DNA of 64,000 nt. Origin: Candidatus Saccharimonadota bacterium (GTDB lineage Bacteria > Patescibacteriota > Saccharimonadia > Saccharimonadales > Saccharimonadaceae). The stretch spans positions 1 to 64,000 of the forward strand of contig JAFRBI010000002.1 in NCBI GenBank assembly GCA_017404935.1, in the 5' to 3' direction. Positions 13,054 through 16,357 of the stretch are shown in pieces. The position numbers and the translations under genes are program-made. The notes beneath the pieces are model-generated. The model did not search any database. It was not told the origin of the DNA and was given only the letters and a program-made list of their open reading frames with translations. Position 1 is the first letter of the stretch. Every line of letters starts with the position of its first letter.

Positions 13054-14099
13054 AGAAAGTATTATATATAGCAGAGAACGTTGAATCTGCACAATTTCGA
13101 TATCGGGTAAAAAATGTGGCAGAAGCGCTCCAGGATTCTAGCGACTGGTCGGCTAAGTGGGTTCTTAAATCTGATCTTGCCAATACGGATTTGTTGAATG
13201 TAGATTTGGTGGTAATTTTAAGACAGACAGAAAAAGATGGAATCTTGCTTGATTTTATTAAGAAGGTGCATCTTGCTGGGCTAAAGGTGTTGTTTGATTT
13301 AGATGACCTAGTTTTTGACTATAAAGATCTTCTGATTTTAATGAAAGGAACTAATAGCAAAAATATAGCTTATTGGGCTGGATATATATGGGGGATTAGA
13401 AGAATTGCTAAAAAAGCAGACGGTTTCATTACGACTAATGAATTTTTGGCAGGGAAACTTAAAAGAAGTTTTAATAAACCCTGTGGCGTGATTCCAAATT
13501 CTTTAAACTCGGAACAAATTAAGGTTGCAGATGAGAGCTTGGAAGACAAAAAGCATGGCGGGTTTGCAATAGGCTACTTTTCTGGTTCACCTACACACAC
13601 AAAAGATTTGAAATTAGTAGAACCGGAAATATTTAGATTTTTGGATGAGCATAAAGATGCGAAGTTGAGGATTGTGGGGTATATGGAACTATCTTCTGAA
13701 ATGCAAAGAAGAGTCAAGAATGGCCAGGTTGAGATTTGTGACTTGGTGGACTATCTGGAGCAAATAAAAATGATGTCGAAGGTGGATGTGAATATTGCGC
13801 CGTTAGTAATTTCTGAGTTTACAAATTGTAAATCTGAGCTGAAATTCTTTGAAGCGGCAGTGGTAGAAACTATAACAATTGCTTCTCCTACGTATGCTTT
13901 TAAAAAGGCAATTTCTGATGGTAAAAATGGATTTTTGGCACAGCCGGGTGAATGGTATGACAAGCTAGGATATCTTTATAATAATCCTTCTGAAAATCGT
14001 AAGATTGCCAAAGCTGCTAGAAAATATGCGTTAGAAAATCACTATGGAAAAAAGTTTGTAAAAGAGGTGGAAGAAGCATATAGATTTTTTTGTAACTAA
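13050..14099 (+). CDS. GT4-like glycosyltransferase
   Basis: A 349-residue GT-B enzyme. It shares a RYRV motif, FDLDDLVFD, GYFSGSPTHTKD and a late KFFEAA...SDGKNGF segment with the first half of the preceding protein. The GTG start overlaps the upstream TGA (13050-13053), so it is translated with that gene. It ends the plus-strand run; its last four bases overlap the 3' end of the oppositely oriented reverse transcriptase gene. Donor and acceptor sugars cannot be read from the sequence. Confidence 0.72.
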   Translation: MKKVLYIAENVESAQFRYRVKNVAEALQDSSDWSAKWVLKSDLANTDLLNVDLVVILRQTEKDGILLDFIKKVHLAGLKVLFDLDDLVFDYKDLLILMKGTNSKNIAYWAGYIWGIRRIAKKADGFITTNEFLAGKLKRSFNKPCGVIPNSLNSEQIKVADESLEDKKHGGFAIGYFSGSPTHTKDLKLVEPEIFRFLDEHKDAKLRIVGYMELSSEMQRRVKNGQVEICDLVDYLEQIKMMSKVDVNIAPLVISEFTNCKSELKFFEAAVVETITIASPTYAFKKAISDGKNGFLAQPGEWYDKLGYLYNNPSENRKIAKAARKYALENHYGKKFVKEVEEAYRFFCN

Positions 14100-15409
14100 T
14101 AGTTTTTAATTTTTTTATTGATTGCGCTCTCTCTTAAGATTTTTTTGGAGTGCCGTCTTATATGTAAGACTTGTTTTTGTATAGATAGATTGTTAATAAT
14201 TTTGCTACTTATTTTTTCATAAGTGTCAAGAGGATTTTTATTGATGGCGCCATCTACGTTGTGGCGTGTGCCATTAATTTTTTTAATTTTTCGGTAATGT
14301 TTTTCCACAGTGGGACTTCTCATTATTATTTTATTTAGGTTCATGTAAAATCCTAAATATTGCAAAAACTCTTTATTTTTAGTATATTTTTTTACAAATT
14401 TTTTGGTGATATCTATAAATATTTTTTTATTTGCTTCTATATAAAAAGCTTCTGTTTTGTTGGCCCCGATTTCCAATTTATATTTTTTTATCTCGTTCAA
14501 AATAAAAGCGTATATTTCTTTAGCGTATTCGTCTGGTATTGCCACTAGTATATCGTCACAGTAGCGTTTATAGATAGTTGGTTTAGGTAATTTAGCTAAT
14601 TTGTTGTTGATTGAATTATCAAAATCGTATAAATATATGTTTGAGAGTATGTCGCTAATAGGGGTTCCCTGAGGAATTCCGTATGCATTGTTATTTTTGT
14701 GTTCTAAGACTGTATTACGTATGAATCTATTATATTTTTTAGGATTGATCCAGCTGTTTTTGCCCATGACATATTCGACGTCTTTATAGAAGACATACTT
14801 ATATTTTGTGACTATCTTGATTATAAATTGCAGGTTGTTTTTTGGTAGATCTTCAGAAAATGGTTCAATAGCCTTACGAAGAACAGAATGATTGATACTG
14901 TCAAAAAAGCCTTTAATATCTATGCATAGAACAGTGTATCCATTTAGAGTTTGCAACGATTTAAATAAATCATTAGCAAAATTTATATTAGATTTATTCC
15001 TTTTGCTTTTTGCGGCAATTGGTATTTTTCTATATCCCAAAATAGAATCATTCAGTGTGGAATTTTTTAATTTATATTCGTAATTCTTTCTTAGGACGAA
15101 AGCATAAAAAGACATAATACAAGAATCTCTATGGGCTGGATACATGATAGATCTGTTTTTCTGTTTTATTTCTAGTTTGCCCTCTAGATCTTTCGAATAA
15201 CGTCTTTTTTTCTGATCAATTCGAATGAGTGGCCAAAATTTTAGGGAATTTAACTTATTTGAAAAATAAAGATCTTTTCTATATTTACCATTTATGGCAT
15301 AGTCAGATTTTGATACTTTGGAATCAAAATGTTTGTAGGAAGACTTTATACAACTTTTCTCTTTTGAATCCTGATTTTTTAACCATTCGTCAATTAGCTG
15401 GTCATTCAT
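14096..15409 (-). CDS. Reverse transcriptase of the DRT/unknown-group type (DRT2-like candidate)
   Basis: A 437-residue single-domain reverse transcriptase. Visible motifs: a KNRSIMYPAHRDS segment (~84-96); motif A CIDIKGFFD with Asp164; motif B GIPQGTPISD (~244-253); motif C YCDD at 283-286; motif D GANKTE (~315-320); and YLGF at 351-354. There is no maturase, endonuclease or integrase region. The motif B sequence is QG-type, unlike the SQ-type box of diversity-generating elements. Length, YCDD, and a long structured leader behind a perfect promoter match the layout of defence-associated RTs such as DRT2, which reverse-transcribe an upstream ncRNA. It lies antisense within a glycan locus and looks AT-richer and more Lys/Asn-rich than its neighbours, suggesting acquisition. 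Subfamily assignment is tentative. Confidence 0.8.
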   Translation of the reverse strand: MNDQLIDEWLKNQDSKEKSCIKSSYKHFDSKVSKSDYAINGKYRKDLYFSNKLNSLKFWPLIRIDQKKRRYSKDLEGKLEIKQKNRSIMYPAHRDSCIMSFYAFVLRKNYEYKLKNSTLNDSILGYRKIPIAAKSKRNKSNINFANDLFKSLQTLNGYTVLCIDIKGFFDSINHSVLRKAIEPFSEDLPKNNLQFIIKIVTKYKYVFYKDVEYVMGKNSWINPKKYNRFIRNTVLEHKNNNAYGIPQGTPISDILSNIYLYDFDNSINNKLAKLPKPTIYKRYCDDILVAIPDEYAKEIYAFILNEIKKYKLEIGANKTEAFYIEANKKIFIDITKKFVKKYTKNKEFLQYLGFYMNLNKIIMRSPTVEKHYRKIKKINGTRHNVDGAINKNPLDTYEKISSKIINNLSIQKQVLHIRRHSKKILRESAINKKIKNY

Positions 15410-15737
15410 ACTCTATTATCATGAAATTGGCAAGTCCTCACCAGCACCAGGTTGATAACGGTCTTGCCAATACTATGCGTATAGCACATTGCATCACTAC
15501 GGGGGTGCTTTTTCACATTATGAAATTTAAACTGTATAATAAACTTATGAAGTCTATTGTGTTCAAACTTCTCGAAAGTTTCTTGGAACATCTAATGGGC
15601 CGAGGCCCACATAATGATACAAGAATGAACCTTATCATCAATAATTATGTAATAATCATCAAAGAAAGGTATTGACCTTCGTATCCTATTAAAGTTCGAG
15701 CCCGATGCAATGACTCTCAACACCTCACGTTAAGGAT
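15410..15737 (-). ncRNA. Structured ~330-nt leader, candidate template/partner RNA of the RT
   Basis: The predicted transcript runs from about 15737 down to the RT start and is dense in hairpins. Stems (plus coordinates): 15666-15670/15675-15679; 15612-15619/15633-15640; 15596-15600/15605-15609 (TGGGC/GCCCA, CGAG loop); 15565-15570/15576-15581 extended by 15561-15564/15586-15589; 15483-15487/15505-15509; and 15427-15434/15463-15470 (TTGGCAAG/CTTGCCAA). No convincing protein precedes the RT, although a 61-codon frame (15591-15406) is open and ends in an ATGA overlap with the RT start. RNA ends and function are inferred. Confidence 0.6.
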
Positions 15738-15743
15738 AATTTA

Positions 15744-15771
15744 ATTATAACGTTTTTTAAATATTTGTCAA
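15744..15771 (-). promoter_or_regulatory. Perfect consensus promoter of the RT leader
   Basis: On the minus strand, TTGACA (15771-15766), a 16-bp spacer, and TATAAT (15749-15744). Both hexamers match the sigma-70 consensus fully. Predicted transcription start is about 15737, some 330 nt before the RT start codon. Confidence 0.8.
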
Positions 15772-15807
15772 TCATATTTTGGCGCAGACGTGATACGTAT
15801 AAGAACC

Positions 15808-15846
15808 TACCGTTTAAAATTGCTAAAATATTGATTTTAAACGGTA
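15808..15846. promoter_or_regulatory. 13-bp perfect inverted repeat between divergent promoters
   Basis: TACCGTTTAAAAT (15808-15820) and ATTTTAAACGGTA (15834-15846) are separated by 13 nt. It lies between the RT promoter and the toxin promoter, where an operator or an element end might be expected. It has no T-run, so a simple terminator is less likely. Confidence 0.5.
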
Positions 15847-15861
15847 AGTTTAGGCCGTCCT

Positions 15862-15889
15862 TTGATTTATATCTGTTTAGTGTTATAAT
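15862..15889 (+). promoter_or_regulatory. Promoter of the MazF-like gene
   Basis: TTGATT (15862-15867), 16-bp spacer, TATAAT (15884-15889), ending 7 nt before the ATG at 15897. This supports a leaderless mRNA and rules out a start further upstream. Confidence 0.65.
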
Positions 15890-15896
15890 ATTTTAT

Positions 15897-16283
15897 ATGC
15901 AGAAAGACTTTGATGGTTGGAATGAACTGAAAAAAGACTTGGATGATAGATCTGATTTTTTGCCAGTCAAGGAGGGGGAAGTCTGGTGGTGTTCAATTGG
16001 GATAAACGTAGGTGTTGAGACTTGTGGTAAAAACGAAAAGTATTCTAGACCGGTAGTGATTTTGAAAAAATTAAGTCAATTTGGATTTCTGGGAGTCCCG
16101 TTAACTTCACAAGAGCATACTGGGAGTTGGTATACAGAATTTGTATTCAAAGATAAAAAGCAATATGCCGTGTTGGCACAAGTTCGAGTTTTCAGTACCA
16201 ATAGATTGACTGATAGGATGGGGACACTTCCCCAATCAGATTTTGATAAGATAAAGGGGGGATTTTTGGAATTATATAAATAA
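15897..16283 (+). CDS. MazF/PemK-type toxin, solitary
   Basis: A 128-residue protein. After a short charged N-terminal segment it has the MazF core: EGEVWWCSIGINVG (where the family usually reads GDIWW), SRPVVILKK, a GVPLTS strand and AQVRVFSTNRL. MazF-type proteins are sequence-specific endoribonucleases that form type II toxin-antitoxin pairs. No antitoxin gene is visible on either side, which is odd. The divergent neighbour is the reverse transcriptase, so the two may form one accessory cassette. The ATG at 15897 is chosen because the -10 box lies just upstream; an in-frame upstream ATG at 15765 would place that box inside the gene. Confidence 0.75.
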   Translation: MQKDFDGWNELKKDLDDRSDFLPVKEGEVWWCSIGINVGVETCGKNEKYSRPVVILKKLSQFGFLGVPLTSQEHTGSWYTEFVFKDKKQYAVLAQVRVFSTNRLTDRMGTLPQSDFDKIKGGFLELYK

Positions 16284-16288
16284 ATACA

Positions 16289-16323
16289 CCCTGGCCGAAA
16301 GACCAGGGCAACGGGTATTCCCG
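16289..16323 (+). terminator. Hairpin pair after the toxin gene
   Basis: CCCTGG (16289-16294) pairs with CCAGGG (16303-16308), followed by CGGG/CCCG (16313-16316/16321-16324 region). There is no strong T-run, so termination is only probable. Confidence 0.4.
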
Positions 16324-16357
16324 AATATATTTCCATTATACCATATGGGTTTAAAAA

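Follow-up and report, generated by a model that had tools for sequence, protein, structure and literature searches.

Can a bacterium with a genome of 740 kb build a gene from RNA? The question is raised by a reverse transcriptase (RT) gene and its leader RNA at positions 14096-15771 of a 64,000-nucleotide stretch (hereafter the window, meaning this whole stretch) that opens contig JAFRBI010000002.1 of assembly GCA_017404935.1, a Candidatus Saccharimonadota genome that is 98.8% complete. An earlier note, made from the letters of the window alone, had proposed an antiphage system composed of an RT and a non-coding RNA (ncRNA) in a probable genome of the Candidate Phyla Radiation (CPR). The host does belong to the Saccharibacteria, a CPR phylum, and the RT is specifically of the DRT2 (UG2) kind with a conserved RNA upstream, whereas the antiphage function would follow from homology to known DRT2. 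The reading that we favour, and regard as reasonably probable, is DRT2-type abortive infection through a Neo protein encoded by a 120-nt repeat unit.

To which family does the RT belong? The gene (14096-15409, minus strand) encodes a full-length protein of 437 amino acids with the motifs YGIPQGTP and RYCDDIL, the latter containing the YCDD active site, and Pfam assigns RVT_1 alone, without an accessory domain, just as the earlier note had described it. Of the PADLOC models Drt2 scored best (274 bits, E=6.4e-82), followed by UG17 with 90 bits; Drt9 reached 48 bits, which places the protein outside DRT9 (UG28). The top phmmer matches are solved DRT2 structures (9c0i and others, E=7e-34), and the retron and group II models of PADLOC and NCBIfam scored far lower than Drt2. 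We calculated a maximum-likelihood tree of 24 RTs, including seven saccharibacterial RTs from six genomes, DRT2s of E. coli and Photobacterium and the RTs of the type found in diversity-generating retroelements (DGRs) from the window's own genome. All seven saccharibacterial RTs form one clade within DRT2 (support 100/99), in which the RT of the window and that of G036, the nearest relative and a genome of the same genus, are sisters (100/100). The E. coli-Photobacterium DRT2s make up another clade apart from them, and the two DGR-type RTs lie far outside, parted from DRT2 by a long and fully supported branch. The tree that the earlier note had called for has thus placed the RT in DRT2; the kinship with group II introns, retrons or DGRs that it had set against its own proposal is contradicted by the low retron and group II scores and by the distance to the DGRs. 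The G036 RT is 59% identical to that of the window, with third codon positions (49% identity) far more diverged than first and second ones. Judged by profiles and tree, the RT is almost certainly a DRT2 enzyme, and the saccharibacterial RTs are, by the same token, a divergent DRT2 lineage distinct from the E. coli type. The two further RTs of the host genome (L002/L003, contigs C9/C8 of G000) each follow an Avd-like open reading frame (ORF), as seen by eye, and look like DGRs; they have the RT fold in common with DRT2 and differ from it by their YVDD motif, the Avd-like ORF upstream and their distant position in the tree.

The RT gene is preceded by a leader of ~328 nt (15410-15737, minus strand), the putative template and scaffold ncRNA, and by a perfect promoter of the operon, TTGACA (15771-15766) and TATAAT (15749-15744) spaced by 16 nt (15744-15771, minus strand), to which a sigma-70-like promoter, TTGACA-N17-TACAAT, is aligned in G036. 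None of 100 dinucleotide shuffles of the leader folds as well as the leader itself (z = -3.8). Its identity to the G036 leader is 73% in the 5' part, 75% in the template, which aligns free of gaps, and 78% in the 3' scaffold; for the 129 nt upstream of the promoter the value is 43%, and for the third codon positions of the RT it is 49%. The leader of genome G578, held out from an nhmmer profile of the window and G036 leaders, was recovered by that profile in the correct position (E=0.0099). The hairpin nearest to the RT (15427-15470, minus strand; stem 15463-15470 / 15427-15434) matches by position the element called 'tower' in the published structure of DRT2 from cryo-electron microscopy (PMC12039810). 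It is fully paired over 8-11 bp, with differing sequences, in six of six saccharibacterial loci checked and in three canonical loci, and among the closest three sequences three pairs are changed on both sides in a compensatory manner. By fold and conservation, the leader is a conserved structured RNA. The promoter and the hairpin-rich non-coding leader of ~330 nt reported in the earlier note are therefore real features of the locus, and the absence of a conserved RNA upstream of related RT genes, which would have spoken against it, is not what G036 and G578 present; what that account, right about the class of system, had overlooked is an antisense reading frame with a leaderless start inside the leader, along with a PemK-like gene in the same insert. 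A covariance model of the RNAalifold structure without the tower (R2) gave no matches, and inspection of the leader sequences yielded no unambiguous stem corresponding to the canonical SL2, which pairs jump motif 2. A possible long-range pairing between CATTGCATC and GATGCAATG (15704-15712 / 15487-15495, minus strand) surrounds the template; by inspection it shows one compensatory change in G036, and it may be a pseudoknot.

Does the leader hold a template of the DRT2 kind? The RT of known DRT2 systems runs through a template of ~120 nt again and again, jumping between two ACA motifs, and the complement of the resulting concatemer is stop-free, with a -35 and a -10 element that meet across the junction at a spacing of 17 nt (PMC12039810, PMC11100668). 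We scanned the leaders for pairs of matching trinucleotides at an interval divisible by three, whose concatenated complement is stop-free and carries a promoter with 17-nt spacing at the junction. Applied blindly to two E. coli DRT2 loci (NZ_CM132658, NZ_CP176484), the scan returned a single candidate each, of 117 nt with ACA/ACA and a 17-nt spacer, that is, of the published kind. The Photobacterium DRT2 gave a 111-nt unit with AGAT/AGAT and TTGACA-N17-TATAAT, and from several further plasmid DRT2 loci the scan returned weak candidates at best. In the window we found a unit of 120 nt with ATG/ATG and TTATCA-N17-TATAAT, in G036 one of 120 nt with ATGT/ATGT and TTAACA-N17-TATAAT, in G632 one of 129 nt with TATG/TATG and TTGACC-N17-TATAAT, and in G578 one of 147 nt with GTAAGT/GTAAGT and TTGACT-N17-TACAAT. 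Genome G750 carries two DRT2 RTs that differ from each other, each with its leader on a contig of its own (L016, L021), and the scan found a neo unit in L021 only.

The candidate template of the window spans 15519-15638 (minus strand), at a position common with G036. It begins at its 5' end with the candidate jump motif 1 (ATG, 15636-15638, minus strand) and is followed directly on its 3' side by candidate jump motif 2 (ATG, 15516-15518, minus strand); the window thus has matched motifs, a length divisible by three and an antisense frame that is stop-free across junctions, with ATG in place of ACA. On the plus strand, the candidate neo -10 element TATAAT lies at 15535-15540, where six saccharibacterial loci have TATAAT or TACAAT, and the candidate -35 element TTATCA lies at 15632-15637, where G036 has TTAACA; the two are 17 nt apart only across the repeat junction. 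The open antisense frame (15520-15675, plus strand) would, when concatenated, repeat the 40 codons MKFKLYNKLMKSIVFKLLESFLEHLMGRGPHNDTRMNLII, while the unconcatenated genome reads on to a TGA at 15673-15675. With the -10 given, the quality of the -35 was matched in 0.3% of 1000 shuffles for G036, 0% for G578, 0.3% for G750b, the locus of the G750 unit, and 0.8% for G632. A unit common to the window and G036 at the same aligned place arose in 10 of 20,000 column shuffles; with the observed -35 quality required as well, the count fell to 0 of 20,000. The substitutions between the window and G036 leave the antisense protein as well kept as observed in 0.8% of random placements. Taken together, scan and comparison lead us to infer the 120-nt junction in the window.

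How would such a frame be translated? The putative start codon of neo is an ATG at 15547-15549 (plus strand), 6 nt after the TATAAT. In ~240 kb of the window's genome (L038-L050), 31 of the 234 ORFs tested have a TATAAT exactly 6 nt upstream of their ATG, as against 0-6 ORFs at other distances, and the organism therefore appears to use leaderless mRNAs widely; Shine-Dalgarno-like motifs precede 60 of the 234 (control 7). Counted from the promoter side, 39 of 425 TATAAT sites in ~240-255 kb of the same genome are followed by N6-ATG and an ORF of at least 40 codons. Of these, 36 reach at least 100 codons and three have 40-99, the neo site being of the latter kind. In the neo frame, TATAAT or TACAAT with N6-ATG is the candidate start in the window, G036, G578 and G750b, and in G632 the spacing is N7. 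It seems that the start signal of neo was rewritten for its host.

Based on these features and on known DRT2, we propose the following course of events. A constitutive sigma-70-like promoter would make the leader RNA and the RT, which would bind its own leader. Phage infection, the trigger being taken over from known DRT2, would set off reverse transcription of the central template, probably the 120 nt from 15638 to 15519 of the minus strand. With its terminal CAT, the growing cDNA could then re-pair from the first ATG to the second, such that the RT jumps back and tandem repeats grow, and second-strand synthesis would produce repeats with a stop-free frame and a TATAAT-N6-ATG start. A leaderless mRNA would be translated into a repetitive, hydrophobic and basic Neo protein, and the cell would arrest. 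Broader still is the view that the Saccharibacteria possess a long-standing DRT2 lineage of their own, whose neo is adapted to the host by jumping at ATG instead of ACA and by a leaderless TATAAT-N6-ATG start inside an RNA-derived gene; here we consider the scales to be evenly balanced.

Several observations weigh against this picture. The score of the RT with the NCBIfam Drt2 equivalog, 259.8 bits, stays under the cut-off of 390, which makes the protein a divergent Drt2 member, and AlphaFold with two sequences gave a pLDDT (predicted local distance difference test) of 33. Covariance models of the leader (R1), the kind of search that the earlier note had suggested, found significant matches to their own members only. 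The scan gave no clean unit or junction in G750a and G920, and in G750b it gave several candidates, among them one of 120 nt with ATG/ATG and TTGGCA-N17-TATAAT. In the window, the junction -35 TTATCA is weak (4/6), and 4.2% of 1000 shuffles reached its quality (p=0.04 from the scan alone). Moreover, a TTCACA-N17-TATAAT already exists in antisense at 15512-15540 of the unconcatenated genome, and likewise in G036, and hence concatenation is not clearly what creates a promoter in the window. The element GTCAATACC (15668-15676, minus strand), just 5' of the proposed template, is the same in G036, and three other leaders have a similar sequence; with TTGAC, its complement offers a better -35, yet the element lies outside the 120-nt unit. 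The sense frame, too, is stop-free in most units, that of the window included; we rejected a stop-free sense frame as coding evidence since it is expected from composition. As to the promoter, many leaderless promoters of the window's genome have a poor -35, which renders the weak junction element less of a problem, and for G578 and G750b the -35 at the junction clearly surpasses the genomic element.

The conserved GTCAATACC element is also the starting point of the main rival explanation, which retains DRT2 and exchanges the template. A unit of ~159 nt including this element would combine TTGACC-N16-TATAAT, and each repeat would give a finite leaderless peptide of 42 amino acids, with a TGA overlapping the -35, rather than a never-ending protein. 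A GTCAAT(A/G)CC-like motif is indeed found at a similar place in five of six leaders, the length is divisible by three in the window and G036, N16 is the spacer of the operon promoter itself, and 42-codon ORFs are present in the window, G036 and G578. However, neither the window nor G036 has microhomology of at least 3 nt at the required positions, and canonical DRT2 requires stop-free repeats (PMC12039810); we hold this explanation to be unlikely. A template that takes in GTCAATACC for its TTGAC -35 was rejected for the TGA it brings into the neo frame and the lack of microhomology, and a 135-nt unit with ATA/ATA is stop-free in the window and G036 but comes without a -35.

It is improbable, in our estimate, that RT and RNA are a DRT2-like pair while the antisense ORF is no more than a small, leaderless chromosomal gene opposite the ncRNA, e.g. 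for a toxic peptide or a regulator under the control of RNA-RNA pairing. The genomic TTCACA-N17-TATAAT-N6-ATG with its 42-codon ORF in both the window and G036 would suit such a gene, but the -35 present in the genome is a poor one in G578 and G750b, and the RT, the 17-nt spacing at the junction and the lengths divisible by three would be left unexplained. Equally doubtful appears a DRT2-family RT whose cDNA acts in another way and makes no Neo, as a homopolymer in the manner of DRT9 or as short repeats in that of DRT10. The authors of the DRT2 preprint did have more difficulty in annotating Neo in divergent clades and brought up other mechanisms (PMC11100668); against this stand the RT scores of 274 bits for Drt2 versus 48 for Drt9 and a template with an open frame and junction features. 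A degenerate or domesticated RT island devoid of defence activity would be in line with the rare and patchy distribution and the weak -35, but it accords poorly with an intact YCDD in a full-length protein, a 59% identical orthologue whose third codon positions are the most diverged, and a conserved RNA, and we give it the smallest chance.

How does the favoured DRT2-Neo reading compare with known systems? With Klebsiella pneumoniae DRT2 (UG2; PMC12039810, PMC11100668) the locus has in common a single-domain YCDD RT, an upstream ncRNA of ~300 nt whose 3' tower adjoins the RT start, a stop-free antisense template unit whose length, 120 nt in either system, is a multiple of three, and an antisense -10 TATAAT within the template. 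In contrast, the saccharibacterial jump motif is ATG or a relative of it where Klebsiella has ACA, the start lies 6 nt after the -10 in leaderless fashion instead of 13 nt downstream with a ribosome-binding site, the -35 of the window is weak, and the SL2 stem was not identified by inspection. The saccharibacterial RT is ~30% identical to those of plasmid DRT2 members and falls outside the E. coli/Photobacterium clade. The two E. coli loci scanned above have the same layout, and the TATAAT is read as YN codons there and in the window, while the Neo sequence is otherwise unrelated to that of the window. DRT9 and DRT10 are likewise described as an RT plus an ncRNA (PMC12489045, PMC12632851); the RT profiles of DRT9, DRT10 and retrons, where compared, score far lower on the RT of the window.

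DRT2 is a known class, and the known case of a protein-coding gene that exists only after reverse transcription. As far as we found, the phylum, the ATG jump motif and the leaderless start are new relative to the DRT2 literature compared; no paper came up in a full-text search that combined DRT2 with Patescibacteria, most subscription papers and all supplementary tables lying outside that search. According to the DRT2 preprint, Neo resists easy annotation in divergent clades, and whether such clades work in another way was not decided there (PMC11100668). For one such clade, that of host-dependent bacteria with ~0.7-Mb genomes, we arrive at a concrete prediction of template, jump motif and start codon, which suggests that the ACA motif and the ribosome-binding site are replaceable parts. 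As a possible instance of RNA-templated gene synthesis in CPR bacteria, the locus opens a distant lineage to tests of the mechanism. Its features suggest that Saccharibacteria, too, assemble a toxic gene from RNA in the course of infection; if so, gene synthesis from RNA reaches into the CPR, and the logic of the system stays the same while its jump motif and translation signal are free to change. The locus also raises the question of why a bacterium that depends on a host cell would retain a suicide system.

Is the system common in related genomes? Saccharibacterial DRT2 was found in 3 of 174 genomes of the genus, in 5 of 394 of the family, G750 carrying two, and in 2 of 393 of the order. In a class sample of 393 genomes it was present in the window's genome alone, which was also the sole match of a protein search in 380 genomes of the phylum; the samples overlap. 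Protein-pattern scans gave no relative in viral contigs and G036 alone, again, in genome contigs. DRT2 is hence sporadic yet recurrent in the saccharibacterial lineage. The earlier note had called such a system unusual in defence-poor CPR genomes, a remark to be moderated in view of this recurrence and of a survey of aquifer genomes in which CPR are low in defence systems per genome but high per megabase (PMC12259885).

The RT, its leader RNA and the PemK-like gene together constitute an insert of 2.26 kb (14100-16357) between two glycosyltransferase genes, antisense within a glycan operon. In the related genome G016 (L034), the homologues of the flanking glycosyltransferases abut and are followed by RmlA/RmlC/RmlB homologues in conserved order, with RT and PemK absent; this empty site bears out the antisense insertion into a glycan locus read from the window at the outset. 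The PemK/MazF-like gene (15897-16283, plus strand; Pfam PF02452, E=2.6e-8) diverges from the RT operon. It was not found beside the RTs in the examined stretches of G036 and G578, for which reason we rejected it as a component of the DRT2 system and regard it as probably a mere neighbour. The G036 RT is accompanied by restriction-modification genes of the HsdS/HsdM type and a SocA/Panacea-domain gene, the G578 RT by a DpnI-type methyl-directed restriction gene, and the restriction genes beside both count in favour of the DRT2-Neo reading. Near the G578 RT and the DpnI-type gene, a 412-amino-acid protein (L036, 5026-6264) that matched nothing in Pfam or PADLOC at the thresholds applied is a candidate for an unknown defence gene. 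A 17-nt inverted repeat, 94% complementary (15804-15820 / 15834-15850), separates the ncRNA promoter of the window from the PemK-like gene; it may be an operator or a mark of the insertion.

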